In this document: positions 5,635-59,365 of the stretch, one piece after another
Position numbering within the stretch: the stretch's first letter is position 1
Layout: every line of letters begins with the position of its first letter
Assembly: GCF_029193595.2 (NCBI RefSeq)
Contig: NZ_CP135054.1
Location: forward strand, 1 to 64,000
DNA from: Providencia hangzhouensis
GTDB lineage: Bacteria > Pseudomonadota > Gammaproteobacteria > Enterobacterales > Enterobacteriaceae
Reading direction: 5' to 3'
DNA: 64,000 nucleotides
The notes under the pieces: generated by a model
What the model saw: the letters and a program-made list of their open reading frames with translations, nothing else
Databases searched by the model: none
Told to the model about the DNA's origin: nothing
Made by a program: the position numbers and the translations under genes

Positions 5635-6087
5635 CTAGTCTTCAATGACGTGTAAACCACGGCGCTTTAAGTCCTCTAACGAATCCAACATTCCCCTTAT
5701 TAATTCAACAGGATGCCCCTCCCAGTCTTCAACAACGCCAACAATTCTCAAGGGTTCGCAGGTTCTATAGGACTGTGTTGGATTACCGGGAAATTTTTTG
5801 TTCGTAAGATTCGGATCGTCTTCGAACGGTCCTGTTGGCTCAACTATGTATATGTAGCCGCGACCCTCGAGGCCAGACAGTGACATAGCAAGTTCAGCTC
5901 CCCAAACTGCTGGCTCCATCAAGGCTGAAAAGTAGATGTGCTTAAGAATACGACCGTCCTCGAAATGAGAGATGAACCCTGTGGTTAGCAAGTCACCAAT
6001 CGCCAAATTGGCTTTGGTTCCATGATAGAACGGTCCTTGCACCTGCTTGTAATTATCATGAGAGATGGGAATCCAATCTTTTACCAT
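5635..6087 (-). CDS. arr-2: Arr-2/Arr-3-type rifampin ADP-ribosyltransferase
   Basis: A 150-residue enzyme that inactivates rifampicin by ADP-ribosylation of the drug. It begins MVKDWIPISHDNYKQVQGP and contains the FYHGTKANL motif and the acidic C-terminal region typical of the small Arr family. The start at 6087 gives the standard 453-bp cassette gene. Arr-2 and Arr-3 differ by few residues, so the allele is inferred mainly from the veb-aadB-arr-2-cmlA-oxa10-aadA1 order. Confidence 0.92.
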   Translation of the reverse strand: MVKDWIPISHDNYKQVQGPFYHGTKANLAIGDLLTTGFISHFEDGRILKHIYFSALMEPAVWGAELAMSLSGLEGRGYIYIVEPTGPFEDDPNLTNKKFPGNPTQSYRTCEPLRIVGVVEDWEGHPVELIRGMLDSLEDLKRRGLHVIED

Positions 6088-6117
6088 TTTAAGACCCTTA
6101 ATTGTTGGGATTTGGCT

Positions 6118-6177
6118 GCATAACACCTGAGTTAAGCCGCGCCGCGAAGCGGCGTCGGCTTGGACGAATTGTTAGGC
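6118..6177 (-). other. attC of the aadB cassette
   Basis: A 60-bp element with core sites GCCTAAC (6171-6177, minus strand) and GTTATGC (6118-6124). It has nearly the same centre as the aadA1 attC (GCCGCTTCGCGGCG). It overlaps the last codons of aadB, as in known copies of this cassette. Confidence 0.9.
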
Positions 6178-6705
6178 CGCATATCGCGACCTGAAAGCGG
6201 CACGCAAGACCTCAACCTTTTCCGCCCCGAGTGAGGTGCATGCGAGCCTGTAGGACTCTATGTGCTTTGTAGGCCAGTCCACTGGTGGTACTTCATCGGC
6301 ATAGTAAAAGTAATCCCAGATGATCGCCTCCCAGCTGTTACAACGGACTGGCCGCCCGGCGATGACGCCCTCAGCCGCCTCTGGGCACGAGCCCTGCGGA
6401 GCCTCCGCGATTTCATACGCTTCGTCTGCCCACCAAGCAGGTTCGCAGTCAAGTAACTCATCCCCGATCTCCGCTAAGAATCCATAGTCCAACTCCTCCA
6501 TGACGCGCCCGCCGAGCATTTCAACTATTGCCTCGAGCTCGCCGCGCCTCTCGCCGGGAAACGTCAGATCAATATCATCGTGCTTGCGTGTTACACGCCC
6601 TAGCCGTGCATCGATCGCCCAGCCCCCACCGATCCAGAGCGGCAGATTTCGCTCATCTGCCGCAGCTAGAATTTTGTGTATCAATGTGACCTGCGTTGTG
6701 TCCAT
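6172..6705 (-). CDS. aadB: ANT(2'')-Ia aminoglycoside nucleotidyltransferase
   Basis: A 177-residue nucleotidyltransferase that adenylates gentamicin, kanamycin and tobramycin at the 2'' position. The motifs LWIGGGWAIDARLG and KHDDIDLTFPG include the metal-binding aspartate pair. The length and sequence match the aadB cassette gene. It is the second cassette from attI1 and is transcribed from Pc. Confidence 0.96.
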   Translation of the reverse strand: MDTTQVTLIHKILAAADERNLPLWIGGGWAIDARLGRVTRKHDDIDLTFPGERRGELEAIVEMLGGRVMEELDYGFLAEIGDELLDCEPAWWADEAYEIAEAPQGSCPEAAEGVIAGRPVRCNSWEAIIWDYFYYADEVPPVDWPTKHIESYRLACTSLGAEKVEVLRAAFRSRYAA

Positions 6706-7749: not shown

Positions 7750-7778
7750 ATGTCTGTACTCCTATCTGGTTAAATTAC

Positions 7779-7845
7779 CGCTAACTTTGTTTTAGGGCGA
7801 CTGCCCTGCTGCGTAACATCGTTGCTGCTCCATAACATCAAACAT
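7779..7845 (-). other. attI1: attI1 recombination site
   Basis: The conserved attI1 sequence lies between intI1 and the first cassette and includes AAAACAAAGTTAG at the crossover point (7779-7791) and the upstream direct-repeat region. New cassettes are inserted here by IntI1. Confidence 0.92.
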
Positions 7846-39749: not shown

Positions 39750-40442
39750 TTAAGTCAAGTTATTAACCCGATACCAGACTCGAACCCCAAAGAATGGGTT
39801 ATTGTTATTCGCCAACAACCATTCTGGTGCCGTATTATCGACTGACTCAATATTGATGATGTGAATATCCACATCACTATTTTGATAGAGCCACCAATTT
39901 ACCGTTTCAGACATCAATTGGGCTTTCTGTTCATCGGGCAATGTGGCTATTGTATTTTCAAGGGTGAACATTTTCGTTCTCACCGCATCGTAAAACCGTT
40001 TGTTTAAAAAGATTTTTGCATGCTCAACTTTATCGTAAGAAAGCCGACGCTTTATTGAGCCACTGTTTTGAACATCAAACCCACACGCCCTAAAAAAGCT
40101 CACACTCACGTTGTCAGTCGCACGCCCTGCAATGGCTGTGGTGAACGATCCCGAAAACTCATTAACGATACGTTCTATCATTTTTCGTCCAATTCCTGCT
40201 TGCCGAAAAAAAGGATGTATCGAAATACTGTGAATATGTGCGATATCCGTGTGGCTGGTAATTTTTGCAACACCTAGAACGGAATTTTTATATAATGCCT
40301 GACAAACACATTCACCGAGTTCGCTTGAGAATGAAATATGATAGTTATTGAGGATATGTTGTCTTTTCATCATCAACGCAATATCGGTCATTCTATTTTT
40401 AGTTGAAAAATGCGGTTGAGTAATTTGAGTTAAAAGTGTCAT
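39750..40442 (-). CDS. GNAT-family acetyltransferase inside the tra operon
   Basis: A 230-residue protein. Residues 70-130 form a GNAT domain: SISIHPFFRQAGIGRKMIERIV holds the acetyl-CoA loop RQAGIG, and SVSFFRACGF is the typical beta6-alpha4 segment. The C-terminal 100 residues are not part of GNAT and are unrecognised. F has no such gene between traB and traV. The substrate is unknown; modification of pilin, host protein or a toxin are all open. An AGGAG site precedes the next gene. Confidence 0.7.
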   Translation of the reverse strand: MTLLTQITQPHFSTKNRMTDIALMMKRQHILNNYHISFSSELGECVCQALYKNSVLGVAKITSHTDIAHIHSISIHPFFRQAGIGRKMIERIVNEFSGSFTTAIAGRATDNVSVSFFRACGFDVQNSGSIKRRLSYDKVEHAKIFLNKRFYDAVRTKMFTLENTIATLPDEQKAQLMSETVNWWLYQNSDVDIHIINIESVDNTAPEWLLANNNNPFFGVRVWYRVNNLT

Positions 40443-41458: not shown

Positions 41459-41950
41459 TTATTTTATGGCTTCAAAATTACGATTATCGACAACACGAGG
41501 CACTTCTTTGTTAAGGATCTTGAGAAGTAACACCGAACGAGCCTCCCCGTCAGGTTCACTGTAAATCGCGCGCACACCTTGGAAGATACCGTCATAAATG
41601 ACCACTTCATCCCCTTTTTGCGGTAACTGCTCACTCACCTCTTTCATAAAATTCGGCACCATCAGAGTCGCAATGATTTCATCGGGCACCACCACAGGCA
41701 ATTTGCCAAATCGCACAAAGTAGCTCACACCCCGCGTTGAGTTAATGGTCGAAAAATGGATCACTTCATAATCGAATTTCACAAATAAATAATTGGGGAA
41801 TAAGGGCTCCATCACTTTGCGTCTCCGATTTCGCACCATTTTCTCCGCCTCATAACGCGGGGAAAAACTGTTCACACCTTGGCGTTCAAGATGTTCAATC
41901 GCTCGTAAATCTTGCCCTGTTTTGCAATACAATAAATACCATTTATCCAT
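41459..41950 (-). CDS. rfaH: Plasmid-borne RfaH/ActX-type transcription antiterminator
   Basis: A 163-residue NusG paralogue very like chromosomal RfaH (162 aa): WYLLYCKTGQDLRAIEHLERQGVN, MEPLFPNYLFVKFD, STRGVSYFVRFG and GEARSVLLLKILNKE are near-identical blocks (given in part). RfaH binds an ops element in the non-template strand of paused transcription complexes and suppresses polarity over long operons. An ops sequence is present in the traA leader (45760-45771). The ATG at 41950 aligns with the RfaH start; a GTG at 41962 is possible. Confidence 0.92.
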   Translation of the reverse strand: MDKWYLLYCKTGQDLRAIEHLERQGVNSFSPRYEAEKMVRNRRRKVMEPLFPNYLFVKFDYEVIHFSTINSTRGVSYFVRFGKLPVVVPDEIIATLMVPNFMKEVSEQLPQKGDEVVIYDGIFQGVRAIYSEPDGEARSVLLLKILNKEVPRVVDNRNFEAIK

Positions 41951-41958
41951 CTGTTCAT

Positions 41959-42153
41959 TCACTTTTGTTGAGAGTCGTTATTTAAGATTTGAGTCACCCA
42001 AGCACTCAAACCGGTATAGATAGCGAGAAAAAGCAATCCATCCCAGCTGATGTCGGCACATACCAATATCACCGCAGGTGAAATGATGAGCCCCATAAGA
42101 AGGACCGCTTTTAATCGCGTTTTAGTGTTGTTTTTTGTGGGTAGAGTTAACAT
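41959..42153 (-). CDS. Small two-helix membrane protein upstream of rfaH
   Basis: A 64-residue protein with two hydrophobic segments (about residues 16-33 and 38-54). It ends at 41959, just before the rfaH start. In F this place, after traB, holds traP and trbD. Neither is recognised here. Confidence 0.5.
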   Translation of the reverse strand: MLTLPTKNNTKTRLKAVLLMGLIISPAVILVCADISWDGLLFLAIYTGLSAWVTQILNNDSQQK

Positions 42154-47087: not shown

Positions 47088-47477
47088 TTAATCTTCTGGG
47101 AAGAAATTATTAATTAGCATTTCTGTCTCACGTTTCATCTCAGCTATACCCTCCCTAAAATCATATCGGCTATCTTCTTTTATTTCATTAATATTAAATA
47201 ACATCTGAAAAATCATTTGAATACATTGTCGTGTCTTTGTCGAATCTTCTAACATTTGCTTTTTATAAAGCTCCTCCCATGTCATTCCATTGTCATCTGT
47301 TTCATCTGATTTCTTTTTTAAATTCATCGTGACACGAACGCCAATATCCAGCATTTCTGAGCAGACGCTCGACATATTTGCATCTGCATGACTTGCCCCA
47401 TCAGCCCGTCGTTCATCAACAATCGTTCTAATTGCATCATAAACTTTTTGTGACATATATACGTTTTGTCTTGCCAT
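47088..47477 (-). CDS. traM: TraM relaxosome protein
   Basis: A 129-residue DNA-binding protein (F TraM 127) that binds repeats at oriT and contacts the TraD C-terminus. It has an N-terminal RHH-like segment (QNVYMSQKVYDAIRTIVDERRADGASHADA, given in outline) and a C-terminal helical tetramer domain ending NNFFPED, like the F end RFFPKNDDE. It is the gene next to oriT. Confidence 0.92.
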   Translation of the reverse strand: MARQNVYMSQKVYDAIRTIVDERRADGASHADANMSSVCSEMLDIGVRVTMNLKKKSDETDDNGMTWEELYKKQMLEDSTKTRQCIQMIFQMLFNINEIKEDSRYDFREGIAEMKRETEMLINNFFPED

Positions 47478-47778
47478 TTATTTAACCTATTTATTTGAGT
47501 GCTAATTGAGTGCCTATTAAAATCGATAGTATCATATTCTTAGTGCTTTAGAAGTGCTAATCTTAACTTTTTTAAGCACTCCATTAGTGCTAACATCTAG
47601 GCACTAATAGAGCACTGCAATTTTCAACTTATTGTTTTAACTTAATTAGCCACAAGATAGCCACAAAACAGCACTAACTTAGCCACATCTCAGCACTCTT
47701 TTAGCACTTAACATAAAGATTTTTAAAATTTTCACCTATTTATTTTTAATTAACGCCCTGATTTAATGATAAATTCTA
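47478..47778. repeat. oriT arm with clustered TraM-type binding repeats
   Basis: Eleven copies of the half-site AGTGC(T/C), in both orientations, lie between 47498 and 47710, many extended to AGTGCTAA or TTAGCACT. Three copies of TAGCCACA also occur (47647, 47659, 47680). They sit between traM and nic, like the sbm sites of F, and should bind TraM and autoregulate traM. Confidence 0.8.
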
Positions 47779-47812
47779 GCAAAATGAAATTTTGCGTGGG
47801 GTGTGAGTTCTT
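47779..47812 (+). other. oriT: oriT nic region (F-type)
   Basis: An inverted repeat GCAAAAT-N3-ATTTTGC (47779-47795) runs into GCGTGGGGTGTG. TTTGCGTGGGGTGT is identical to the F nic region, where TraI cuts after GTGT. Here nic is between 47804 and 47805 on the plus strand. The 5' end points to higher coordinates, so the region from 47.8 kb upward enters the recipient first and the tra genes last. Confidence 0.9.
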
Positions 47813-47935
47813 TCTTTCAGAGGAGCATATTTATTGCTCCTCCTTTCTTTTGGCTTGCATTTAAATATTGCTTTATTTTTTAATTAAAATGGGCGATTCT
47901 GAGTTAAGAGAGATTATTATTAAATGGGGTTTTAT

Positions 47936-48382
47936 ATGCGAATAATCTGTATTCTCATTGCGTTATTTTTTTCACCGTTTTCATTTTCGTTTGATTGCTA
48001 TGATAAAGCAGGAAATGATTATCAAATAGACCCTGATTTATTACGCGCGGTTGCCTTTCGTGAAAGCTCATTTCAACCAAATGCGATTAACCAAGCTTCA
48101 CCGACGCGATACGCTATTGGCTTAATGCAAATTCATTCGCAAAACTTTAATGAATTAGCGCAGTATGGCATTACCGAAAATCAATTAAGGTTAGATCCGT
48201 GTATGAATATTTATACTGGCGCGTTTTATCTCGCGAAGTTTATTCGTATACAAGGGGATATCTGGAAAGGCGTAGGGGCTTATAATGCAGGGTTGAAAAA
48301 ATCCGAGGCTCAAGAACAAAAAAGAAATCAATACGCGCTTGAGGTCTATCACATTTATCTTAACATTAAAAAAAATAACTAA
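47936..48382 (+). CDS. Lytic transglycosylase (Orf169/P19 type)
   Basis: A 148-residue periplasmic protein with a signal peptide (cleavage near FSF). The goose-lysozyme-like SLT domain has the catalytic glutamate in AFRESSFQPNAIN, the GLMQIH motif and GAYNAG. It opens peptidoglycan for the transfer machine and corresponds to Orf169 (gene X) beside F oriT. The ATG at 47936 follows GGGG at 6 nt. It is the only leading-region gene on the plus strand. Confidence 0.92.
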   Translation: MRIICILIALFFSPFSFSFDCYDKAGNDYQIDPDLLRAVAFRESSFQPNAINQASPTRYAIGLMQIHSQNFNELAQYGITENQLRLDPCMNIYTGAFYLAKFIRIQGDIWKGVGAYNAGLKKSEAQEQKRNQYALEVYHIYLNIKKNN

Positions 48383-48463
48383 ACTTACTCCTTTTACTTT
48401 CTATTTTTAACGCTATAATCACGTTTAATATTAAGTAATGCATGTGGCTTAGTATTAAAACGA

Positions 48464-48489
48464 GAAACGCGCCTTTATGGCGCGTTTTC
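48464..48489. terminator. Bidirectional terminator
   Basis: GAAACGCGCC-TTTAT-GGCGCGTTTTC lies between the ends of the convergent transglycosylase and LPD29 genes, with T-runs on both strands. Confidence 0.85.
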
Positions 48490-48490
48490 T

Positions 48491-49357
48491 TTAATAACTT
48501 GTTTTCCTTAGTACGCGATTAATTTCTCCGCCTATACCGTCATTTCCAATAATTTGTTCTCGTCCAATTTTGTATAATTTACCTTGATTAAAATTTTCAA
48601 CGGTCATTAACGCGGTATCAAACTCATAAGACTCGCCATATTTTTCAATCAGTGATTCTATTGCTAATGCTTTTATTTCATCACTGTAATGACGATGTGT
48701 AAAAACATAATCAGCTCCACCATAAACTACGTTAAAAGGTGATGTATCACTATAATGATAATCAGTATAACTATCAAAACGCGATGTTTCGTATTTATTG
48801 ATAATTGATTCGACTTCATCCACTGTTGGGCCATCTGTCCATGATACATGGTAAGTACTGTGATGTTGTTTACGTACTGAAAATTTTGTTTTTGGAAAAT
48901 GTTTTTTTAATTCAGCGCGGATATTTTTACCGACTATTTTAATTTCCTTATCTGAATTAGAGGTTATCTGTGTTAAGTGCGAATATTCTGTGTTGTTTTT
49001 TTGGAATTCGACACCTTGTTTAAATTCATTTTTCTTTCGTTCTTCTTCGGCTTTTTCTGCTTGTTCATGTGCCTCAGCTTTTTCAATTAATGATTTAATG
49101 GTTTCTTGTTCAACCATTTCATCTTCAATTTTCCATTGTATGCCGTGCAAAATACTTTCCGGCAAACGATTAGTTTTATTCCCATTAAAGAATACGATAT
49201 CAAATTCAGCATTGCCCCCTGTGACCATAACATTATACATATTCTTTATGCTTTGTGGTTTTTGCTCGCCATGAATATTAACAATAACCCCCTTGCCGAG
49301 ATTATATAAATTAGTATAAACCACTTGACCAACCGATAATAATGTTTGCTGTTCCAT
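48491..49357 (-). CDS. Leading-region protein with LPD29-like domain
   Basis: A 288-residue soluble protein. Residues 1-75 form a small beta-rich domain. A charged helix follows (residues 80-120). The C-terminal part (FPKTKFSVRKQHHSTYHVSW, then a TDYHYSDT segment) resembles the large-polyvalent-protein-associated domain LPD29 of mobile elements. Function unknown. It is last in the unit that starts with the KlcA gene and is made from the transferred strand. Confidence 0.65.
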   Translation of the reverse strand: MEQQTLLSVGQVVYTNLYNLGKGVIVNIHGEQKPQSIKNMYNVMVTGGNAEFDIVFFNGNKTNRLPESILHGIQWKIEDEMVEQETIKSLIEKAEAHEQAEKAEEERKKNEFKQGVEFQKNNTEYSHLTQITSNSDKEIKIVGKNIRAELKKHFPKTKFSVRKQHHSTYHVSWTDGPTVDEVESIINKYETSRFDSYTDYHYSDTSPFNVVYGGADYVFTHRHYSDEIKALAIESLIEKYGESYEFDTALMTVENFNQGKLYKIGREQIIGNDGIGGEINRVLRKTSY

Positions 49358-49433
49358 ATTCGTTTACCTTTTTCTGATTTATTGATTGATGGTGTTTAAT
49401 GAAGCGCAAGCCTGAGACTTGCGCGGGATAGTG

Positions 49434-49913
49434 TTAATCAATGGCGTTTAATATTTTGGTTTGTGATTCAGGGGATAATGTGAAAATAAAATCCCGTAAT
49501 TGATGAAAATAAGCAGAAATACGCTCACAATCTTCGTGATGCTCTTTTTCATAGGTCACAAATGAAAAATGACTTAACATCATTAAGGTGACAATAATTC
49601 CCGCTTCTTGAGCACTTACATCGTCCATAAATCCATTCGGTGAAGTGAGCATATAGCCTTTTGTCGGTTGCAGATAAAAACCACCATTCGACAACGTATA
49701 AAAATCCCAATAGCCGCCGTTATAGGCTACGGCGTTCCGAGTCATCCAGTGATAGATTGCATTTTCAAACGCAATACAGTAGCGACCTAATTTTGAAGGT
49801 AAAAACGTTAAACGAGCTTGAGCATTCTTCACCTCAATAGCCGTGATGACAATTTCGTCTTTTCCATTTCTTTCGTTAGATTCTCTCGCTGCAAGGTTTT
49901 GTTGTTGAGTCAT
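49434..49913 (-). CDS. klcA: ArdB/KlcA-family antirestriction protein
   Basis: A 159-residue protein with the ArdB/KlcA signature (FLPSKLGRYCIAFENAIYHW, NGGYWDFYTLSNGGFYL, FMDDVSAQEAGIIVTLM). These proteins protect incoming DNA from type I restriction. Unusually, the first 18 or so residues (QNLAARESNERNGKD) are encoded by a repeated leader element and recur in the unrelated gene at 56303-56593. The place in the leading region fits early protection of transferred DNA. Confidence 0.88.
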   Translation of the reverse strand: MTQQQNLAARESNERNGKDEIVITAIEVKNAQARLTFLPSKLGRYCIAFENAIYHWMTRNAVAYNGGYWDFYTLSNGGFYLQPTKGYMLTSPNGFMDDVSAQEAGIIVTLMMLSHFSFVTYEKEHHEDCERISAYFHQLRDFIFTLSPESQTKILNAID

Positions 49914-50350
49914 TTTAGTGCCTCCTTTTGGGTTAATGATTTCTTTCGTCGAGTTCCTGCGCTGCAAAGGGCGTGCATAGAGGAAATGAGGAAGGAAGCA
50001 AGGGCGGAGGCAAAATTGTTGGAAAGCGCAGCGACAAGAATTTTGCTGGAGTGCACTTTACCCTTGCTGGATGACGAATTGAGTCTATGTTTAAGCCCGA
50101 GCGGAGGGGCTTGGCGAAAGATTAACAGCACAGTGGCTGAAAATGACGCAACTCGACTTGCGGCGAGAGAATCGAACCGCAAGGCGTCCTTTGAGCTTAA
50201 CAACGTTAAGCGGTTAATCAGGGGCTGCTCCCGCAGGGAGCTTGCATCCCTGCCCTTTGCGCCACGCGTCAGCGTAAAAAGGCGCAGGGGTTGGTGTTGT
50301 CGGATTGAGCCTGGCTCGATGCCAGGATTAAGCCGATGCGCAAAAAAGGG
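49858..50350 (-). repeat. Leading-region repeat copy A, candidate single-strand promoter
   Basis: About 490 bp with strong similarity to 56534-57155. It runs from inside the klcA start codon region through many hairpins: CTTGCGG/CCGCAAG (50157-50183), GCTTAAC/GTTAAGC (50195-50211), GCAGGGA/TCCCTGC (50233-50253) and CCTGGC/GCCAGG near 50310. No credible gene is inside. It lies upstream of klcA and on the transferred strand would fold like the Frpo/ssi promoters of F. Confidence 0.75.
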
Positions 50351-50377
50351 GAATAAATCCCCTTGAAATAACGTGAA

Positions 50378-51187
50378 TTAGGCGGTTAAAAAGGATTTAA
50401 AGCGGAATGAATTTAACATTAACATCGGGGTATATAGCGTTTGACGAACGTCCAGCGTTAAACTGTTACCAATATTCACAATCGCAGGTATTCCCAATAA
50501 TGCCAGTTGGACGTAGCACATTCGGGCAGCAACCTCATCAATATCGGTACACACTGCAATCATTTGTGTTTGCGGATTAAAACCTTGCTGTAACACAGAA
50601 TTAGCACAGGCAATCACCATTCCACCTGCGCCACACGTAGGCTCGCACACACTGATATAGCCATTTTGTTCAATTATCGCCCCACAATCCCCGATGATGA
50701 GATCACTCATGAGCTGGCTAACGTGAAATGGGGTGAAAAATTGCCCCCATGCCCCTTCGCCTAATTCAAGTGACATAAACACCGAGCCTAAAAAATCGGT
50801 GGCTTGTTGGTCTAAGCCGTTAACACAAAGGGCTAATAGTTTCGCAAACGCATCCAAATCCGCTCTTTCATAACGCGCAATCACGTTAAAGTAAGTTTGT
50901 TCCAATTCAGGGCACTGTTTCACGCTGTTTTCTAATGAAATCGCAGTAACATGAATAAAATCGCGAAACACCTCTACACGACTGTGATAACGTGCCGTTT
51001 GATTAAATAATTGAATAAATTCCTTGTGAAAATCGCGCTTTGATTTGGCGTTAACTGTGGTTAGATTTACTTTCTCGACTGTTTTATCTGTCTTTGTGTC
51101 TATCTTACTGGGCGAACCTGAGATAATAGGATTGGCTACTTTCACGGGTTGGCTTAAATCCACATCAAAAAAACTCAATTGTGACAT
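50378..51187 (-). CDS. N6-adenine methylase-like protein
   Basis: A 269-residue protein with a type I HsdM-like fold. It has GQFFTPFHVSQLMSDL and the SAM-binding motif I CEPTCGAGGM, then motif II around AVCTDIDEVAARM. The catalytic NPPY/F motif is absent; the protein ends shortly after motif III (GNSL). Similar short methylase-like proteins occur in leading regions. It may be a non-catalytic SAM or DNA binder. The ATG at 51187 follows GGAG at 7 nt. Confidence 0.75.
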   Translation of the reverse strand: MSQLSFFDVDLSQPVKVANPIISGSPSKIDTKTDKTVEKVNLTTVNAKSKRDFHKEFIQLFNQTARYHSRVEVFRDFIHVTAISLENSVKQCPELEQTYFNVIARYERADLDAFAKLLALCVNGLDQQATDFLGSVFMSLELGEGAWGQFFTPFHVSQLMSDLIIGDCGAIIEQNGYISVCEPTCGAGGMVIACANSVLQQGFNPQTQMIAVCTDIDEVAARMCYVQLALLGIPAIVNIGNSLTLDVRQTLYTPMLMLNSFRFKSFLTA

Positions 51188-51239
51188 ATCGACGCTCCAG
51201 AACTGCCCCTGAAACAAAAAACAGGGGCAGTGAGTTAAC

Positions 51240-51482
51240 TTAAATCCACGATTTACGCAGTTCTAAACAGCGCAAGAGTTGCCCCAAACACTGGTTATTC
51301 ATTGCAGGAATGCGAACGGGCTTTTTGCGTTTAAGTTGTTTGTCGATATGCCGCGCCATTGCCCGATAGGTCGGTTCAATATCACGAATCGCGATATCGT
51401 GACGCACGACCCGACGTTTTGACACGGTGGGTATTTGGGGCTTTACAGGGTTGGCAGCGTATGCCATGATATTTGCGTTCAT
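51240..51482 (-). CDS. Small basic hypothetical protein
   Basis: An 80-residue basic protein (KKPVRIPAMNNQCLGQLLRCLELRKSW at the end, given in outline). A clear AAAGGAG site precedes its ATG. It is in the same direction and unit as the methylase-like gene. Family not recognised. Confidence 0.6.
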   Translation of the reverse strand: MNANIMAYAANPVKPQIPTVSKRRVVRHDIAIRDIEPTYRAMARHIDKQLKRKKPVRIPAMNNQCLGQLLRCLELRKSWI

Positions 51483-51571
51483 AGGAGCTACTCCTTTGAG
51501 TGAGTTGATGCCTTGAGTTCCTCGCTAAAGTCATTCAAGGCACGGATTAAGCAGGCGAAAGCCTGCTTTTT

Positions 51572-51910
51572 TCATTGTTGCGCTAGCAATCCAGCACAAC
51601 GCACACGCGAAATAATTTGCGCGTGAGATAACGTTGATACATCCCGAAACGTGAAATAGCGCCCGTCCACTTTGACAAAAATGTCCGTCACGTTCCCCAA
51701 AAACATCTCTTGCAATTTAAAGGACTCCGTATTGTTATTGCCTTGCCAATCCAACGGGGGCATAACGGATAACGCATCCATAAATTGCATTAAGGTGATT
51801 TCTGTCGGGGCAGTTTTAGCCGCTTGTTCACGTCCTATCCAATACATCAATTCCGCGCTTTGGGTTTCTTGGTAACTGTCTGTTTCGTACTGCTCTAATG
51901 CGTGATACAT
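51572..51910 (-). CDS. Hypothetical leading-region protein
   Basis: A 112-residue acidic protein starting MYHALEQYETDSYQE after an AGGAGAAAGAGT site. A longer frame to 51997 lacks a good start. No known domain. It is the second gene of the unit that begins at 52258. Confidence 0.6.
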   Translation of the reverse strand: MYHALEQYETDSYQETQSAELMYWIGREQAAKTAPTEITLMQFMDALSVMPPLDWQGNNNTESFKLQEMFLGNVTDIFVKVDGRYFTFRDVSTLSHAQIISRVRCAGLLAQQ

Positions 51911-52006
51911 ACTCTTTCTCCTTTTATGATTTAGTAGTTGGCTCAATATCGAACAGGCTCGATATTGAATAGCGCGTTTAGATTTCGCGCTATTCAATAG
52001 GTCGCT

Positions 52007-52258
52007 TTAACGGTATTGGCGAACCTGTTTTTTAAACGTTTTAAGGTGGTTGGCGCTTTCAATTTCGCGGTAAGTTAAATCGGTGTTTTTTGTTCCATCG
52101 GTTAAGGCATAGTGGTAATTCATGTTCATTTTTTCCGCGAATTTCGTTTTTTTCAGAAAAGCGAAGAATTCAGCAATGGAATTGAAGTGATAAACGTCAT
52201 CCGCTTGCCCTGTCACATTTTTCTTATGGGTTTCTGCAATAAAAACTTGATAATTCAT
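52007..52258 (-). CDS. Hypothetical leading-region protein
   Basis: An 83-residue protein (MNYQVFIAETHKKNVTG...) with an AGGAGT site before the ATG. It has an alpha/beta-like pattern and no known domain. It is the first gene after the structured region at 52350-52740, so it would be the first product made from any promoter there. Confidence 0.6.
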   Translation of the reverse strand: MNYQVFIAETHKKNVTGQADDVYHFNSIAEFFAFLKKTKFAEKMNMNYHYALTDGTKNTDLTYREIESANHLKTFKKQVRQYR

Positions 52259-52349
52259 GTTGATACTCCTTTTTTTGGCTTTTAACTCATCTTTCTGGAG
52301 GTTTTGGCGTGGCGGTGTTGACGTTCACCGATGGCCTCGTAGTTCTCTT

Positions 52350-52740
52350 TGAAAGTGTTAATTCATCTTACTGTCAGTTCAGTCGCGGCAAGGGCGATGA
52401 AGCCATCAAGGGAAAGGTTTTGCAGGGGCGCAACGCGGCGAAGCGAACCCTTGCAAGTTCTTGAGCTTGAGGGCGTAATCAATAGCCCTAGCGAATGGGC
52501 TGATAGTAAGAAAATAACCGTCGGGTGAGGAGGCAATCGGCCGACACGCAACGCGTGGCGTCTTTAACGGCCGTGCGAAGCACGAAATGCCGTGCCGTTA
52601 GGTTTCGCTTGCTATCCGAAGGACAGAGACGCTTGCGGCTCTGCGGAAACCCATTCGTAAAACGAATGGCGTTGGAGTGTAGGCGACAGCTCGAAGATAT
52701 CGAGCTGCCGTAGGAACCCATAAGGGGTTATTGTGTTTTT
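52350..52740 (-). other. Structured non-coding region B in the leading region
   Basis: About 390 bp packed with hairpins. They include CGTGC-GAA-GCACG (52572-52584), CCATTCG-TAAAA-CGAATGG (52651-52669), CAGCTCGA-AGATA-TCGAGCTG (52687-52707) and CACGC/GCGTG near 52537. Composition is GC-rich compared with its flanks. It precedes a four-gene unit on the minus strand. It does not align by eye with repeats A and C. Open frames inside it have no supporting features. Confidence 0.55.
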
Positions 52741-53195
52741 TTAATAACTAAATTTTATAAATTTTAATTTAAGCTTTTTGTTAAAAAGCATTATCTCATT
52801 GTTTTAAACTCTAAAAACCAACGATACGTCATCGTGCTCTCAGGAAAATCCCATTTTTTTTTAACAAACCCCAAGGCTTTTACACTCAAACACTCGCTGG
52901 TTATGCCTGTTTCAAGAGAAATAAAGGGCAGTTCGGGTTTACCCGAACTGCCCTTTATTTCTCTCATTATTCAACGGTTCCTCAAGGTCGATGACACTGT
53001 CCACAGTAGGCAATTTTAATCGCACACCATCCCACAGTGTACTGTTATCAACCATTTACCCACTAAAGTCATCAATGACGCCCACTCGACCCGAAGCGAT
53101 ATACAGTAGAAAAAATGTTCCATTGTAATAACAATGAACACATTGTGTTTGTTTGCTTTTTAATTGCATCGTGAACTCACTAACTGTCTTGCATC
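52741..53195. other. Intergenic region between the PsiA and 52-kb units
   Basis: About 455 bp with no gene I can support on either strand. It contains the long hairpin at 52915-52964 and a small palindrome (CATTGT-AATA-ACAATG, 53120-53135). No hok/sok-like toxin was found, although F has one downstream of psiA. Confidence 0.5.
52915..52964. repeat. Perfect 23-bp hairpin
   Basis: Two 23-base arms are exactly complementary, starting AGAGAAATAAAGGGCAG and closing around GTTCGGG-TTTA-CCCGAAC. A terminator for the PsiA unit is possible, but the flanks have no long T-run and the stem is longer and more perfect than usual. Confidence 0.85.
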
Positions 53196-53462
53196 CTAAA
53201 ATAGCTCAAGACACGTCGCTAAAAATGCGCCTTTAACGTCCTGACTGGAGGGGTAATAATAGGTTGCATACCCATCTCTAGGCACCGCCTTGTAATATCC
53301 TACATTGATATCTTCACAAGCTAACCACGTTTCGCGGTCACTCTGTGAAATTTCATTCGCGGCAATTGCTGAGTTAATCACCGTTTCTTTTGAGTGCTCA
53401 CCGCGCATCATTAACAACAAACTGTCTTCAGTTTCGAGTAAAACCACATTTGATTCGTTCAT
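53196..53462 (-). CDS. Small acidic hypothetical protein after psiA
   Basis: An 88-residue protein starting MNESNVVLLETEDSLLLMM. It has no signal or membrane helix. The C-terminal region is tyrosine-rich (GYATYYYPSSQDV). The ATG at 53462 lies 8 nt after AAGGG and 13 nt after the psiA stop. It occupies the last place of the ParB-like/psiA unit. Function unknown. Confidence 0.6.
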   Translation of the reverse strand: MNESNVVLLETEDSLLLMMRGEHSKETVINSAIAANEISQSDRETWLACEDINVGYYKAVPRDGYATYYYPSSQDVKGAFLATCLELF

Positions 53463-53475
53463 CGTCAACGCCCTT

Positions 53476-54198
53476 TTAACCGATTAATTTATTGGGAATG
53501 GCATAATTATCCAGTAATTGCTCACCGTATGATCGGGTATCGATATCCTCATTGAAATCCAAGAGAGCCGACCAAAACGGGGCAAAATCAAGGTATTTTC
53601 GCAAGTTTAAATTGTTAAATCTCGACGTCCAGTTCACAAGCAATTCAATCAAATCATACTCTTCAATCCCATCATGATTAAACCGGTTGTACCACGATTT
53701 AAACTCACTGGGGGTAATAAAGGCTAACTCAATTTCGGCTTGGGCTAATCGGTTTTGATACTGTTGCTGCGCTTTAATTTGGGCTTTTTGTCGTGCTCGG
53801 CTCACAACATGCACGTGAGACTGAATTTTTCGTTCCTGCCGTTCACGGTCACGGTAATCCAGTTCAGGAAAAAAATCACGCACATGATGATCACACAACG
53901 GCAACGGACAAAGATAACCACGGGAGTGAATAAACGTATCAAGGGCGGCAAGATAGCGATTTTTTGATGGCATTTCACGTTTATCGTCAAAAGATAACAC
54001 TAACGTAAAGTGCAAATCTTTTGCGGTTATTGCCCCTTTATTCCCCGTAAAAAATCGAATTAACGCACACGCATAGGGATAGCGTTTTTGGTATTGCCCT
54101 TTTTGCATTTTATCTTCGACAAAGAGAATAGCTTTTGCGGCAGCATATTGACGGTCATTAAAAGGCACAAGGGCTAAATGGTTTGGAATAGTTGTCAT
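53476..54198 (-). CDS. psiA: PsiA, plasmid SOS-inhibition-region protein
   Basis: A 240-residue protein, nearly the length of F PsiA (239). It shares the pattern ALVPF..RQYAAAKAI, RYPYACALIRFFTGNK and the basic central helix (SRARQKAQIKAQQQYQNRLAQAEIELAF, given in outline). PsiA is encoded beside psiB in F leading regions. Here psiB is missing, and the gene before it is the large ParB-like protein. Its own biochemical role is not established. Confidence 0.8.
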   Translation of the reverse strand: MTTIPNHLALVPFNDRQYAAAKAILFVEDKMQKGQYQKRYPYACALIRFFTGNKGAITAKDLHFTLVLSFDDKREMPSKNRYLAALDTFIHSRGYLCPLPLCDHHVRDFFPELDYRDRERQERKIQSHVHVVSRARQKAQIKAQQQYQNRLAQAEIELAFITPSEFKSWYNRFNHDGIEEYDLIELLVNWTSRFNNLNLRKYLDFAPFWSALLDFNEDIDTRSYGEQLLDNYAIPNKLIG

Positions 54199-54239
54199 GA
54201 TTATTCACACTGCCCTTTCGGGCAGTGTCTCCATATTGA

Positions 54240-56240
54240 TTATTGCGCGTTATCGGTGTGGTGAGTGTCAGCATTTACATCGAGAAAACAGCTCGGCAAC
54301 CAATGGGTATCTTTAAGGGTATTTTCAGCCAACTCCGCAGCATCCCCTTTTTTCATTTTGACGGCTTCAAGGGCTTTATCTGATGCGCCTGCCTCGGCTA
54401 AACAATCGCTGATTTGGTCTTTACTGATACGCCCAAAGAAGTTGGTTTTGGTTGGCTGCCACCACTGGCGAAAATCAAAGGCAATCGCCTGTTCAATTGG
54501 ACGCAAGGCTTTAGCTAACGTGTTATCGTGCGGAGTATGATGGTTCACTTCACTCAACGTTTGCGCGGAACAAAACGCCAGTAATGCGACTAAATCCGCT
54601 TGCTCCCACGTCAATAACCATGAGAAGTCGGCTTGCCATGCGTCAGGGAGACGCGCTGACCATGACTCAAATTGCGTATTGAGTAATTGCAATGCTTCAC
54701 TGTCTTGGGCGGTCGGGGCATTTTTGAGTAACTCGTCCTGAGAAAGCGAAAATTTAATGTTAAATGCGGTTTTGGTATACGGTGAACCAAATACCTGAAT
54801 ACACGCATCATGAACCAAAATCGCCAGTGCCACGTTTGGATGTTGTGTTAATGCCGCTTGAACGGCTAACGTGCGCTCAGAAGAGAGACTTTTGCACAAC
54901 GCTGCGCTGTAAGTAGAAACCGTCTCAACTTGAGTCGTAGATTGCTCACTCACACTTTCAGTTTCGCTTTTTGCTTCACTGCACTGTGACTCTTGCTGTG
55001 CTAAGTCAATGACGCCGCGGATGACACACGGTTCTCCATCACGGTCAAGGTAGACAACAACGCCTTTTGTTGCTTTTCTATCGGCTGTCCACGCTTGATT
55101 TTGGGTACGAGCTTTAATGTCTTCGATTTGCTTTTCGCAATCAGCCACGACTTGGCAAAGGTCAGCTTGTTCATTTTCGTCATCGGTTTCCCATGATTGC
55201 TGACGTAAATCAGTTTCACGAGTACGCAATTCAGCCAGTAAATCCGCAAATTCAGGGGGAATGACCGCCTCGGGCGCATGACTGAGAGACAAGGTTTCTG
55301 CGTCATTACCATAAAAGCTCGGACGCTCTAAACGTGCAGTACCGAACTGCCAACCCTCAAACTCGGCTAATAGTTCCGCACAAACAGTGAGTTTATCGAG
55401 TGCTAATTTTTCTAATAGTGGGGCATTTTCAATGAAGCCGGCTTCGGTAAAGAGGTCAATTTCAAGGGTTCCCCCTGCTTGCTCGTAAGCGTCCAACCCA
55501 ACAAAATTCACCAGTCGGTTATTTTCGACGGGGGTTTTGGTTTCTTCAACCGCTTCACGCAAGTAGCATGGCTCTTTTTTCCACCCAATGGCATTGTTCC
55601 ATACCATGACTTGACGGTCGTGGTCAGGTGTTCCGGCTAACGCTTGCAGTTGGTCAAGGGTAATATTGTCGGCATCCAACTCCGCTAACAGCTCGGGAGC
55701 CATGTTTGCTAAACGCAGACATTTTTTCACGTGGTGAGTGCTGAACCCTAATAAGTCACCGATTTCAGCCGCATTTTTGCCTGTTTTTTGTAGCTCGATA
55801 AACGCATGAAGTTGGTCGGCTGGATGCATGGCTTCACGTTGGCTGTTCTCCGTCAGGGAAATAATCAGCGCATCAGACTCCGAAACCATTTTAACAGGAA
55901 CCGGAAAACTTGACGCTAAATGCCCTTTTGTCACCAATTGTTGTAACGCCAGTAAACGACGTTGACCCGCAGCAACCCCGTAGACGTCATTGTCCATCGG
56001 GTAAACCACCAAGTTTTGTAACACCCCGACCGCTTGAATACTGTCTGCCAGTTCGGACAAGGCTTTTTCATCCATTGGACGTTTACGCACATTGAGTTCA
56101 CTCTGTACCAATGCCGATAACGGCAATACGTGCGCTTCCATGTTGTCCAATGCCTGATAAATCGCGTCGGCCTGAGCCGATTTTGTGCCTTTTTTTGCTT
56201 TACGTTGTTTTGGGTTAATGATAGTTTCTAATGTAGACAT
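54240..56240 (-). CDS. Large leading-region ParB/Spo0J-like protein (YubM type)
   Basis: A 666-residue protein. Residues 40-115 form a ParB N-terminal domain (LNVRKRP, YGVAAGQRRLLAL, the GQRR box), followed by a helix-turn-helix (HPADQLHAFIELQKTGKNAAEIGDLLGF, in outline). The long C-terminal part has no known domain. Such proteins lie next to psiAB in leading regions of F and IncI plasmids and are not part of the partition pair. The ParB N-domain may act as a CTPase or nuclease. The ATG at 56240 follows AGGTGA at 6 nt. Confidence 0.85.
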   Translation of the reverse strand: MSTLETIINPKQRKAKKGTKSAQADAIYQALDNMEAHVLPLSALVQSELNVRKRPMDEKALSELADSIQAVGVLQNLVVYPMDNDVYGVAAGQRRLLALQQLVTKGHLASSFPVPVKMVSESDALIISLTENSQREAMHPADQLHAFIELQKTGKNAAEIGDLLGFSTHHVKKCLRLANMAPELLAELDADNITLDQLQALAGTPDHDRQVMVWNNAIGWKKEPCYLREAVEETKTPVENNRLVNFVGLDAYEQAGGTLEIDLFTEAGFIENAPLLEKLALDKLTVCAELLAEFEGWQFGTARLERPSFYGNDAETLSLSHAPEAVIPPEFADLLAELRTRETDLRQQSWETDDENEQADLCQVVADCEKQIEDIKARTQNQAWTADRKATKGVVVYLDRDGEPCVIRGVIDLAQQESQCSEAKSETESVSEQSTTQVETVSTYSAALCKSLSSERTLAVQAALTQHPNVALAILVHDACIQVFGSPYTKTAFNIKFSLSQDELLKNAPTAQDSEALQLLNTQFESWSARLPDAWQADFSWLLTWEQADLVALLAFCSAQTLSEVNHHTPHDNTLAKALRPIEQAIAFDFRQWWQPTKTNFFGRISKDQISDCLAEAGASDKALEAVKMKKGDAAELAENTLKDTHWLPSCFLDVNADTHHTDNAQ

Positions 56241-56302
56241 ATTAATCACCTATGTAGTTTATTGTGTCTAAGCTAAGGGAGGCTCAACAACTCCCTTAGC
56301 AC

Positions 56303-56593
56303 CTAAGATGCCTGAATCAATTCAGGACGCAGATAGAACATGTTGTTTAAATTGTCACTAAATCCAATCGGATAGCCGTCTTTCATAAAAATACTGTTGG
56401 AATCGAACGCATCACTGTGCAGCGTGATTTCTTCGTCGTATAACTCCGGTGAAATACCCCCCTCGAATAACTCCAATAACCGTGTTAATGGCGCAATGTA
56501 ATGCAATAAATCCGCTTTCTGGTCATGCGTCAGTAGGTCTTTCCCCCTTCTTTCGTTAGATTCTGGAGCTGCAAGATTTTGATGTGATGACAT
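56303..56593 (-). CDS. Hypothetical protein sharing its first codons with klcA
   Basis: A 96-residue acidic protein. Its start (MSSHQNLAAPESNERRGKD) matches the start of KlcA because both start regions lie in the repeated leader. The rest (residues 20-96) shows no known domain. It is the first gene of the unit that continues with the ParB-like gene and psiA, so it would be produced first in a recipient. Confidence 0.65.
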   Translation of the reverse strand: MSSHQNLAAPESNERRGKDLLTHDQKADLLHYIAPLTRLLELFEGGISPELYDEEITLHSDAFDSNSIFMKDGYPIGFSDNLNNMFYLRPELIQAS

Positions 56594-57155
56594 TTTTGAA
56601 TCCTCCTTTGTATTAATGATTTCTTTCGTCGAGTTCCTCCGCTGCAAAGGCCGTACATAGCCGAGACGAGGAAGCAAGCAAGGGCGGAGACAAAATTGTT
56701 GGAAAGCGCAGCGACAAGAATTTTGGTGGAGTGCACTTTACGCTTGCTGTATGACGAGATGAGGCTATGTTTTAGGCCAAGCGGAGGGGCTCGATGAAAG
56801 ATTAATCACACAGGTGATGAAAATGGCAGCACCCGACTTGCAGCGAGAGAAGCGAACGGCAAGTCGCCATTAACGCTTAGCGCAGCTAAGCAGTGAACCA
56901 GGGGCGGTCCCGCAGGGAGCTGCACCCCTGCCCTTTGCGCCACGTTGAAAACGGTAAAAGGCGCAGTGGTTGACCTTTCAAGCCGGTTGTCCCCATTTTC
57001 CACATTTGGCGAGCCAGTGAGCGCGCCCCAAACAGGCGCGAGAACGGGAGTGTACGGGGAACCTGCGCCAACTGTGTGTAAATGGGGTCAATCCGGCGTT
57101 CGGCTTAAGCCTGGCTCAATGCCAGCATGAAGCCGTTGCCCCGAAACGCAAAAAA
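56534..57155 (-). repeat. Leading-region repeat copy C, candidate single-strand promoter
   Basis: A second, diverged copy of the element at 49858-50350, with an extra segment of about 110 bp (near 56970-57100). Stems are kept: CGACTTGC/GCAAGTCG (56834-56866), GCTTAGC/GCTAAGC (56875-56891), GCAGGG/CCCTGC (near 56915) and TGGC/GCCA near 57112. In the second stem both strands changed relative to copy A, keeping the pairing. It precedes the unit with the ParB-like protein and psiA. Confidence 0.75.
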
Positions 57156-57266
57156 AGCGTATCCACAAAATCAGTGGATAACTTGAAATAGCCCTGTTAA
57201 TAACAAGGTTAATAGCCTGATTAATGAATGAATATCAACACTGCTCAAAAAAACATCACCCAATGA

Positions 57267-58535
57267 TTAGCATTTTACGATAGGAATATCCGAGAATTGC
57301 GTTGTCCATCGGGGCGAGAGAAATTGCTGCTTCATTTTCCATAAAGCCGATTGCGATTGAACCCCCTGACCTGCAAACCAGATAGCGCCTTTTCCGCGAT
57401 TAATCTGGTCAATCGTCTGCATCAGTTCACCACTTTTGCGAAAAGCATGGCCACTTTCAAACAAATTCAGCTGCACTTGCCCTGAAGGGGAAAATTCACT
57501 GAGTAATATGCCACTTTTGCTGTATTTCACATTCGGAAGCCAAAGTCGGTCAAATAACCCCACAGCCGCCTGAAGAATCTCGCGTGTATCTTGGGTCGGA
57601 TAAATGAGAGCTTGGGTTTCTTGACGATAATAGTGCGGCTCATGATGGGAAAAATGGCTACTCTGCACCCACAAGGTCACTAATCGACAATACTGTTTTT
57701 CTTCCCGCAGTTTTTCTGCTGCACGTTCAGCAAAGGCACATACCGATTGGCGAACCAATTCGTAGTCCATGACTTTATGGCCAAAAGAGCGAGAGCAAAT
57801 AATTTGTTGCTTGGCGGGCGCGACTTCTTCAAGTTCCAGACAGGATTCACCATTCAACTCTCGCACGGTTCGTTCTAATACCACGGAGTACATTTGGCGC
57901 GCCTGGGTCGTTGACAACCGACTTAAATCCAAGGCAGTTTCAATTCCGCTTTGATTCAGGCGTTTTGCCAGTTTACGCCCTATTCCCCAAACGTCCCCAA
58001 CGGGCACGAGGGCCATAAGTTTCTTCTGACGACTGGGCGAACTTAAATCGACGACACCACCTGTTTTCTTCCACGTTTTGGCGGCATGATTCGCCAACTT
58101 AGCTAGCGTTTTGGTACTGGAAATCCCCACCCCCACAGGCAAATGCGCACACTGGAATACATCCTCTTTTAATTTATGGCCAAGTTCATGCCAGGAATAC
58201 AATGAATCCATACCTGTCAGGTTACAAAAACATTCATCAATACTGTAAACCTCAATTTGAGGCACAATTTGAGCAACCACCGCCATAAATCGATTACTAA
58301 AATCGGCATACAAGGGATAATTTGAAGAAAAAACAGTGACTTGTTTTTGCTTGATTATCTGCTTAATTTCAAAATAAGGGGCTCCCATACGGATATAAGG
58401 TTTAGCCGCCGCCGAACGCGCAATCACACAGCCATCATTATTCGAAAGGCAAACAATCGGCTTTCCTTTTAAATCAGGCCTAAAGACAGATTCACAGGAG
58501 GTGTACATGGAATTGACATCGATAAGCGCAAACAT
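57267..58535 (-). CDS. umuC: UmuC-type DNA polymerase V subunit
   Basis: A 422-residue Y-family polymerase, the same length as E. coli UmuC. It has [15 protein letters not shown] with the metal-binding Asp, YSIDECF with the catalytic Asp-Glu, and the helix-hairpin-helix region ([12 protein letters not shown]). It copies past DNA damage with UmuD'2. The ATG at 58535 lies inside the umuD end region, so the two genes are coupled; a GTG at 58544 is possible. Confidence 0.96.
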
Positions 58536-58540
58536 ACTTT

Positions 58541-58924
58541 TCACCGACAGGTATGCACGGCATAACGAACGACACCGAAGATTTGCACGTCTGTATCGTC
58601 ATTGATTGGGATAGCGGGAAATTGACTGTTAGCAGGAATAAGGGCTTTAGTCGGTGTGATTTGCAGGTACTTGCAGGTGAATTCGCCATCGTATTCAGCA
58701 ACGACAATTTCCCCATGACGGGCAGTAAGGTGACTTTCGACTACCAATAAGTCACCGTCAAAAATCCCCGCATCCTTCATCGAATCCCCTGAAGCTCGAA
58801 GAAAATAAGTACTTTCAGGATATCGAATTAATTCAGCATCGAGGGATAGCCTGCGCTCAATGTGATCTTGAGCGGGACTGGGAAAACCACAGGCAACTAG
58901 ACTTTCGAAAATAGGAATTTGCAT
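58541..58924 (-). CDS. umuD: UmuD-type SOS mutagenesis peptidase
   Basis: A 127-residue LexA/UmuD-like protein that self-cleaves with RecA filaments to give UmuD'. The cleavage site is Cys12-Gly13 (VACGFPSPA), and the dyad is Ser48 (ASGDSMKD) and Lys85 (FTCKYL). It lies under a LexA box and overlaps or abuts umuC. It is slightly shorter at the N-terminus than E. coli UmuD (139). Confidence 0.95.
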
Positions 58925-58936
58925 AGGGCACCAACA

Positions 58937-58952
58937 CTGTATAAATACACAG
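58937..58952 (-). promoter_or_regulatory. LexA box of umuDC
   Basis: CTGTATAAATACACAG (CTG-N10-CAG) lies 13 bp before the umuD start, within a longer palindrome CACTG...CAGTG. A TATACT sequence on the minus strand next to it can serve as -10. SOS control is expected. Confidence 0.9.
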
Positions 58953-59013
58953 TGTGAGTATACTTTACTCCATTTTAAAAAACAAACATGTGAATTTATA
59001 ATTCACATCTACT

Positions 59014-59029
59014 ATTTCGCATGCGAAAT
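59014..59029. repeat. parS: parS site 1
   Basis: A 16-bp perfect palindrome, ATTTCGCATGCGAAAT, 7 bp after the end of the 59036-59365 gene. It is one of four identical copies in this partition region. Confidence 0.85.
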
Positions 59030-59035
59030 GGTTTT

Positions 59036-59365
59036 CTAATTCCTTCTATACAAACGTAATACATCAGATGTTAATTTATAATGCTGCTTACCCCACCGTC
59101 CAAAAATGTTCTCCTCAATATAATCTCGGTTATTTTTGTCACCTTGATCTCTATAGTAGTATATTAAAATGATTCCTTTATCTTTTAGATAGTTTGCAAC
59201 TTGAGTTATATTTGTCCTTACATAACCAGTATTTGATTGGAACAAATCAAGATCAATACCATCGAATCCGTTATCAAAAGCATCAAGTAAATATGCTAGC
59301 AAGGATGATGATATTGAACGACGTCCTGAAGATGTAATTATTTTTTCTAGTCCCGAAAAAGTCAT
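59036..59365 (-). CDS. Hypothetical protein at the end of the par operon
   Basis: A 109-residue protein with a possible winged-helix pattern (SSSLLAYLLDAF, RTNITQVANYLKDKGIILIYYYR). That fits a small DNA-binding protein, but the family is not recognised. It overlaps the upstream gene by 4 bp and ends near parS site 1, so it belongs to the parAB transcript. Confidence 0.55.
   Translation of the reverse strand: MTFSGLEKIITSSGRRSISSSLLAYLLDAFDNGFDGIDLDLFQSNTGYVRTNITQVANYLKDKGIILIYYYRDQGDKNNRDYIEENIFGRWGKQHYKLTSDVLRLYRRN

Follow-up and report, generated by a model that had tools for sequence, protein, structure and literature searches.

The closest described systems are the single-stranded DNA promoters of the F plasmid, Frpo1, which serves ygeA, and Frpo2, which serves the genes from ssb to psiA (available text of PMC9849209), together with related copies on plasmid R100. 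Further promoters of this kind, Frpo′, were proposed upstream of leading genes of non-F plasmids by Samuel et al. 2024 (PMC11541004), where, in the accessible text, the candidates were found from a box consensus and BLAST. Here we describe three elements, A, B and C, of a Providencia plasmid, located in a 64-kb window (positions 1–64,000, the whole stretch of DNA analysed) within the 79,375-bp contig NZ_CP135054.1. Sequence comparison leads us to conclude that A, B and C are homologs of Frpo, beyond a mere likeness of role, and we consider it highly probable that they are Frpo/ssi single-stranded DNA promoters that drive the adjoining leading genes when the plasmid enters a recipient. This assignment is based on homology, structure and strand preference, and on position by synteny.

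Elements A (49857–50366) and C (56537–57180) are diverged copies of one structured element. They share an ungapped 300-nt direct repeat (49857–50156 and 56537–56836, 82% identical), and blastn of A against C aligned query positions 1–437 at 81.8% identity (E value 6e-118), with a second piece of 40 nt (50300–50339 and 57100–57139, 85%). The repeat, blastn, fold and profile searches delimit a homologous core at 49857–50199 in A and 56537–56879 in C, both on the plus strand. Folded as single-stranded DNA on that strand, A reaches −116 kcal/mol, with none of 100 shuffles as stable (z −7.9), and C −139 kcal/mol, with none of 20 (z −6.5). Like the F elements, which lie in the leading region, each forms one imperfect hairpin of about 300 nt on the transferred strand (49875–50177 in A, 56554–56858 in C), followed by small 3′ hairpins. 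The 3′ tail of A (50200–50348, plus strand, by fold) holds hairpins of the GCTTAAC, GCAGGG/GGAGC, GGCGC and CTGGC types. That of C (56880–57155, plus strand, by blastn and fold) also contains an insertion of about 120 nt (about 56978–57098) that is absent in A, folds as a long imperfect hairpin and is possibly a separate initiation signal.

An earlier note, made from the letters of this DNA, had described A and C as two diverged structured copies. Their alignment is real, but the note missed the third copy, B, and the main structure, since the long hairpin is larger than the stems it listed. It had also read selection for structure from a stem in which both arms changed, GCTTAAC/GTTAAGC in A and GCTTAGC/GCTAAGC in C. 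The change is present, but it affects one pair of an otherwise invariant 7-bp hairpin, which is G-C in 9 and A-T in 6 of 15 Providencia A/C copies, and it probably reflects a single event that separates the two lineages, A and C. As to the other stems said to be kept, the GCAGGG and CTGGC types do form in both tails, although the GCAGGG pairing differs somewhat between the minimum-energy folds; the CTTGCGG-type hairpin was seen by eye in about 22 of 37 elements, with pairs that differ between groups, and it forms at the expense of the long hairpin's base. At 50157–50183 in A, and at the matching site in C, the lowest part of the 3′ arm can pair with the 5′ arm or, alternatively, with a nearby sequence (CTTGCGG/CCGCAAG in A; CACG/CGTG or CAACG/CGTTG in relatives), a possible two-state switch.

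Element B (52279–52572, plus strand) is a diverged third copy that has lost the AT-rich tip. Its hairpin spans about 52307–52549, with a z of −5.6, and none of 100 shuffles was as stable. A profile built only from A and C found the middle copies of three other Providencia plasmids (L011, L012 and L019) at E values of 9.4e-52 or lower; the window's own middle copy, B, is more diverged and scored 0.93.

Iterated nhmmer searches over 27 records collected 64 element copies, 58 of them distinct, from hosts that include Providencia, Klebsiella, Salmonella, Citrobacter, Enterobacter, Rahnella, Prodigiosinella/Brenneria, Erwinia, Pantoea and Serratia, as well as F and R100. Because iteration can draw in unrelated sequence, we carried out held-out tests, for which the F and R100 targets were stretches of 20.5 kb and 50 kb, respectively. 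A profile of 54 sequences without F and R100 matched Frpo1, Frpo2 and three R100 copies at E values of 1e-31 to 4e-30, covering Frpo1 and Frpo2 nearly full-length and giving nothing else below 0.9. The same five copies were found by a Providencia-only profile of 24 sequences (1e-11 to 7e-7), and reversed and shuffled F/R100 controls for these two profiles yielded one match, at 2.5. Among narrower profiles, that of the 16 Providencia A/C copies gave 1.5e-6 for Frpo1, 0.002 for Frpo2 and 0.003 to 0.04 for the R100 copies, and that of B copies alone matched F at 2.9e-7 and 4.4e-6 and R100 at 7e-5 to 3e-4. A profile of 30 relatives, none of them from Providencia, F or R100, located A (1.5e-30), B (1.6e-32, without any Providencia sequence in the profile) and C (1.1e-35) in the window, where the next match was at 4.4; it matched Frpo1 at 3e-35, Frpo2 at 9e-35 and the F and R100 copies together at 3e-35 to 6e-32, with nothing beyond these five in the searched F/R100 stretches at E values up to 5. 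Since held-out profiles that lack F and R100 find Frpo1 and Frpo2, we regard A, B and C as homologous to them, over about 340 nt by profile, and the Frpo/ssi assignment made in the earlier note is thereby supported as membership. A two-way comparison with F would wrongly have rejected this homology: blastn of A or C against F gave weak pieces only (best E value 0.014), and the window copies were missed by a profile built from the four distinct F/R100 sequences (best 0.21, at B). No Providencia record appeared among the best 5,000 matches listed for blastn with Frpo2.

In ColIb-P9 (IncI1), which has ssi/Frpo-like elements, three places, upstream of ssb and two other leading genes, match the family profile at 9e-9 to 2e-6 with the 54 sequences and at best 0.035 with the Providencia-only profile. 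The AT-rich tip is alike, but only the apical part matches; the basal arms differ and lack TTGACG, except that the third copy has one in its tip.

With three relatives as blastn queries, 392, 1,383 and 1,415 of 72,556 plasmid records were matched (E value up to 0.001). A and C each match 53 plasmid records, all from Providencia. In an even sample of the order, the element occurs in 9 of 394 genomes, the window's included (E value 1e-5 or lower), and in a sample of the class in 1 of 274, the window's own; the filters of these samples lose weak matches, and the model includes sequences of one positive genome (G024) and of close Providencia relatives.

The elements lie where the leading region should be. 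The tra genes of the window are on the minus strand, and the order of traM (47088–47477) and the transglycosylase gene (47924–48382, plus strand) is the same in F. In F, the origin of transfer (oriT) sits between these two genes. The gene order and this oriT place together indicate that the leading region should run towards higher coordinates and that the transferred strand should be the plus strand, with oriT expected at 47478–47923 by F synteny. The genes adjoining the elements are templated on the transferred strand, in a leading-region position judged by gene order as in F, in agreement with what the earlier note had stated. The presence of a complete MOBF relaxase gene on the plasmid suits this assignment as well.

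Each of the three copies adjoins the first gene of a same-direction run, with the start codon inside the element or about 20 nt away. Next to A is an antirestriction-family gene (49434–49913, minus strand; Pfam PF03230, E value 2e-19, domain from residue 64), followed by an LPD29/LPD30 gene (48491–49357, minus strand), which has one weak PADLOC match, PbeB, at 4.5e-4. B adjoins a homolog (52007–52258, minus strand; BLASTP E value 4e-11, 34% identity over 80 columns) of YgeA, whose gene in F is served by Frpo1; the start codon of the homolog lies about 20 nt outside the element. The last same-direction gene after B encodes an N6-methylase-like protein (50378–51187, minus strand; PF02384), which in a PADLOC search of five genes received mostly methyltransferase models. 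C adjoins a gene of 96 codons (56303–56593, minus strand) without a Pfam match, and precedes a ParB-like gene (54240–56249, minus strand) and psiA (53476–54198, minus strand; PF06952), much as the Frpo2 run of F includes a ParB gene. Unlike in F, C has no adjoining ssb or psiB, there are three copies, and the start codons in A and C are inside the hairpin rather than 22–23 nt outside it.

We propose that the plasmid would enter the recipient as the plus strand, on which each element would fold into its long hairpin, and that RNA polymerase would read this hairpin as a duplex promoter, as it does in F. The adjoining genes would be expressed before second-strand synthesis and shut off once the DNA is double-stranded. 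Judging from gene order, the operons so served would comprise the antirestriction and LPD29 genes for A, the genes from the YgeA homolog to the methylase for B, and the small gene, parB and psiA for C.

The best-surviving alternative, which we nevertheless consider improbable, is that these are priming-only elements (ssi or single-strand origins), at which RNA polymerase or a primosome starts the complementary strand and expression is a by-product. Frpo primes DNA synthesis in vitro, according to the available text of PMC7690428, and the additional hairpins in the tails of A and C, including the insertion in C, would suit such a role. A priming site would not account as readily for the placement of every copy directly beside the first gene of a run, or for the presence of 2 to 6 copies in each of the nine positive sampled genomes; moreover, with Frpo1 or Frpo2 deleted from F, three reporter fusions showed no significant early increase (PMC9849209, available text). 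Priming and promoter roles can coexist.

That the structure is under selection is best seen in the wider family. An alignment of 35 representatives, built from sequence and not fitted to structure, was analysed with RNAalifold, which retains 16 consensus pairs, each of them in the central part of the long hairpin. Of these, 14 show compensatory change, and 89.3% of the cells pair. Among 200 tree-based simulations started from the consensus, the highest values were 13 compensatory pairs and 69.7% of cells, and none of the 200 reached the observed values. Sliding the partners by 1 or 2 columns left 8 to 10 compensatory pairs and 43 to 52% of cells. Among the 16 Providencia A/C copies, 97.5% of cells pair, compared with a null maximum of 89.4% (0 of 200). 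For these copies a cruder null with a random root had a maximum of 7 compensatory pairs against 8 observed (0 of 200), and it was replaced by the consensus-rooted null, which is fairer. We conclude from these alignments that the wider family shows selection for structure, which two copies alone could not have done; the two-copy argument of the earlier note was too weak by itself, and the covariation it had looked to a wider alignment for does occur, though mid hairpin and not in the stems it listed.

The strand on which the structure matters bears on a second alternative, in which the element acts as RNA, a riboregulator or attenuator in the leader of a minus-strand mRNA that is made from an ordinary double-stranded promoter. 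Speaking for it, the ribosome-binding site and start codon are in the 5′ side, the complement strand also folds, and the mismatches at one subset of pairs, given below, point that way. The transferred strand nevertheless folds better than its complement in 34 of 35 representatives, by more than composition explains in 33 of 35, though the elements are related and these are not independent counts. Mismatch types point the same way, since G.T cells exceed A.C cells on the union of both strands' pairs (44 to 16 in the 35 representatives; 103 to 56 in the 16 Providencia copies, where the union is richer in transferred-strand pairs) and on pairs predicted for both strands in the 35 representatives (24 to 8). 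Only for the 33 both-strand pairs of the Providencia A/C copies is the balance reversed, with 7 A.C and 3 G.T. A sigma70-like scan of 48400–59100 on both strands gave 14 sites, with 19.1 expected, and no minus-strand site inside A, B or C, although an absent consensus match is weak evidence of inactivity in double-stranded DNA. On balance the modelled strand evidence speaks for single-stranded DNA over mRNA, and we regard the RNA explanation as very unlikely. That the copies are functionless, decayed or recently duplicated repeats spread by gene conversion is hardly credible: one copy, L016, is degenerate (z +1.1), and the A copy of L015 carries a C-type leader, which indicates that conversion occurs, but the covariation exceeds the tree nulls, the elements adjoin leading genes in several genera, and of 37 elements folded one by one (12 shuffles each), 29 reach a z of −3 or lower. 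The L016 copy (6001–6337), for which no downstream start was found, is perhaps a naturally decayed element.

A feature not seen in F concerns the start codons. The antirestriction start codon (49911–49913) is 57 nt inside A, and that of the 96-aa protein (56591–56593) is inside C, with identical copies in record L003, so that the N-termini MTQQQNLAARESNERNGK and MSSHQNLAAPESNERRGK, respectively, are encoded by the 5′ side of the two hairpins. By a crude rule, requiring a match to a ribosome-binding site and a frame of at least 50 aa, the downstream start falls 57–67 nt inside the element in 34 of the 58 distinct copies, A and C included, outside in 19, and was not found in 5. Three of the 19 outside starts are more than 100 nt away, and record annotation puts two of these three (L026:6078 and L031:9001) inside, as it does for L026:9015, which has no start by the rule; the count of 34 is therefore probably low. 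Annotated starts agree in several records. The genome sample yielded 27 elements, 8 of which the first set had included; their start is inside in 16 cases, outside in 8 and not found in 3. For the 19 new ones the numbers are 12, 6 and 1, and their leaders are mostly recognisably related.

Proteins that are otherwise unrelated begin alike in these copies. After 22 residues were trimmed, the 34 leader proteins fell into 14 groups without detectable similarity (BLASTP E value 1e-3), and yet they share openings such as MNTQNVNTAASESSERW, MSQQNVNTTASESKESS and MTQQQNLAARESNER. In a comparison of 6 ParB and 3 LPD29 proteins, ParB has the leader when its gene directly follows an element, as in L030 and L032, but not when the gene comes later (F, L028, L026 and the window, where it is the second gene after C); LPD29 has it when adjoining an element (L022) and lacks it in the window and in L026. 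The antirestriction protein of L015, with its C-type leader, is a natural exchange. From this placement and exchange we conclude that the leader belongs to the element and not to the protein, and that the element moves as a cassette of promoter plus first codons, which provides unrelated proteins with a common leader. Selection on the peptide itself was also considered, and the ratio of nonsynonymous to synonymous differences (pN/pS) was not convincing: 0.70 in frame against 0.91 and 1.28 in the wrong frames for 19 non-Providencia sequences, and 0.78 against 0.87 and 0.60 for 15 Providencia sequences.

In the start-inside elements the ribosome-binding site and start codon are within the 5′ side of the hairpin. 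RNA that reads through from double-stranded DNA would fold the start site away, whereas RNA begun within the hairpin would leave it open. In the folding model, 32 of the 34 start-inside elements show a less open site in transcripts that span the whole element than in transcripts that begin 70 nt before the start codon (mean openness 0.39 and 0.58). For elements with the start outside, the site is less open in 9 of 16 (0.56 and 0.55). The 34 include fifteen Providencia relatives of A and C, and the hairpin by itself is enough to produce the effect, which therefore counts as a prediction and not as evidence of use. A start codon in the stem may in this way add a second lock on translation. Taking these observations together, we suggest tentatively, at somewhat less than even odds, that a widespread class of conjugative single-stranded DNA promoters is a coding cassette of about 20 first codons that spreads a common leader, with a stem-start translational lock limiting expression to the single-stranded minutes.

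In the searchable openly licensed literature, with supplements and subscription papers outside the scope, we met no description of the start-in-hairpin, shared-leader form. As compared by text and not by sequence, the main text of the Frpo′ study (PMC11541004) does not contain the word Providencia, and nothing in its accessible part refers to hairpin start codons or to leaders in common. The element type is known; its start-in-hairpin, leader-sharing form appears to be new relative to the F precedent, and overlap with the Frpo′ list is possible.

Promoter boxes were scored on both strands of the 35 representatives, with sigma70 letter frequencies. Two peaks emerge in the family average, TTGACG in the 5′ arm and TTG..16..TA in the 3′ arm. 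TTGACG occurs in 39 of the 58 elements, including 14 of the 16 whose start codon is 19–29 nt outside and in which it is non-coding; the best F match is TTGACG, 17 nt and TTTTGT. B has TTGACG at the usual place (52318–52323), where A has TTGTTG (49899–49904, a candidate −35 box in a first placement) and C has TTGATG (56579–56584), all on the plus strand. A and C score best at TTGCTG-16-TATGTT in the 3′ arm (50064–50091 and 56744–56771, plus strand), a second placement of candidate boxes that does not score above shuffles. In several relatives (L027:9000–9351, L033:9001–9346, L030:9003–9365 and others), TTGACG occurs as a tandem repeat, TTGACGTTGACGTT, that is read in the leader's frame (NVNVK).

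Several of our observations weigh against these interpretations. The oriT placement comes from synteny alone, and the members of the held-out profiles were picked by an iterated search that had met F. Scored singly, none of A, B, C, Frpo1 and Frpo2 exceeds shuffled sequence for boxes; the common TTGACG, retained in F, is lost in A and C, and a weak terminator-like site lies inside A on the minus strand (50162–50147). The 8 compensatory pairs of the Providencia A/C copies were reached by 32 of 200 consensus-rooted nulls, 8 of 37 elements, L016 among them, have a z above −3, and the mismatches at the Providencia both-strand pairs favour A.C, as given above. Finally, leader pN/pS is only mildly below the wrong-frame values, and in Providencia not consistently so.

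Other features of the window complete the picture. Terminator-like hairpins with a T run abut A at the end of the upstream methylase gene (50349–50362, minus strand) and C downstream of umuC (57160–57180, minus strand); this upstream placement, like the absence of minus-strand sigma70-like sites inside the elements, favours the single-stranded promoter assignment. A perfect 24-bp inverted repeat with a 2-nt spacer, also terminator-like, lies at 52915–52964, between the psiA side and B. The traI gene (16276–21417, minus strand; PF08751, E value 2e-74) encodes a full-length MOBF relaxase/helicase in a 1713-aa frame, and yet MOB-suite types 50 of 53 related plasmids as non-mobilizable; the relaxase may be too diverged for its typing scheme. 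Within the tra operon are a NusG/RfaH-like gene (41459–41962) and a GNAT-like acetyltransferase gene (39750–40442), homologs of which are annotated at the same place in L003. Rfam gave no match at A, B or C; the sole gathering-score match of the window, RF02912 (aminoglycoside riboswitch/attI family) at 7765–7831, is a sign of an integron.

If our assignment is correct, the F mechanism would extend to Providencia plasmids, in which plain blastn with the F sequence misses it, and the family profile could locate other hidden copies. The cassette would explain why unrelated leading-region proteins open with the same peptide, and the leader may serve as a handle for spotting early-expressed anti-defence genes. 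The start-in-hairpin form predicts a two-level switch that would confine leading-gene expression to plasmid entry. For plasmid evolution, it would mean that a single interchangeable unit carries promoter, ribosome site and first codons together.

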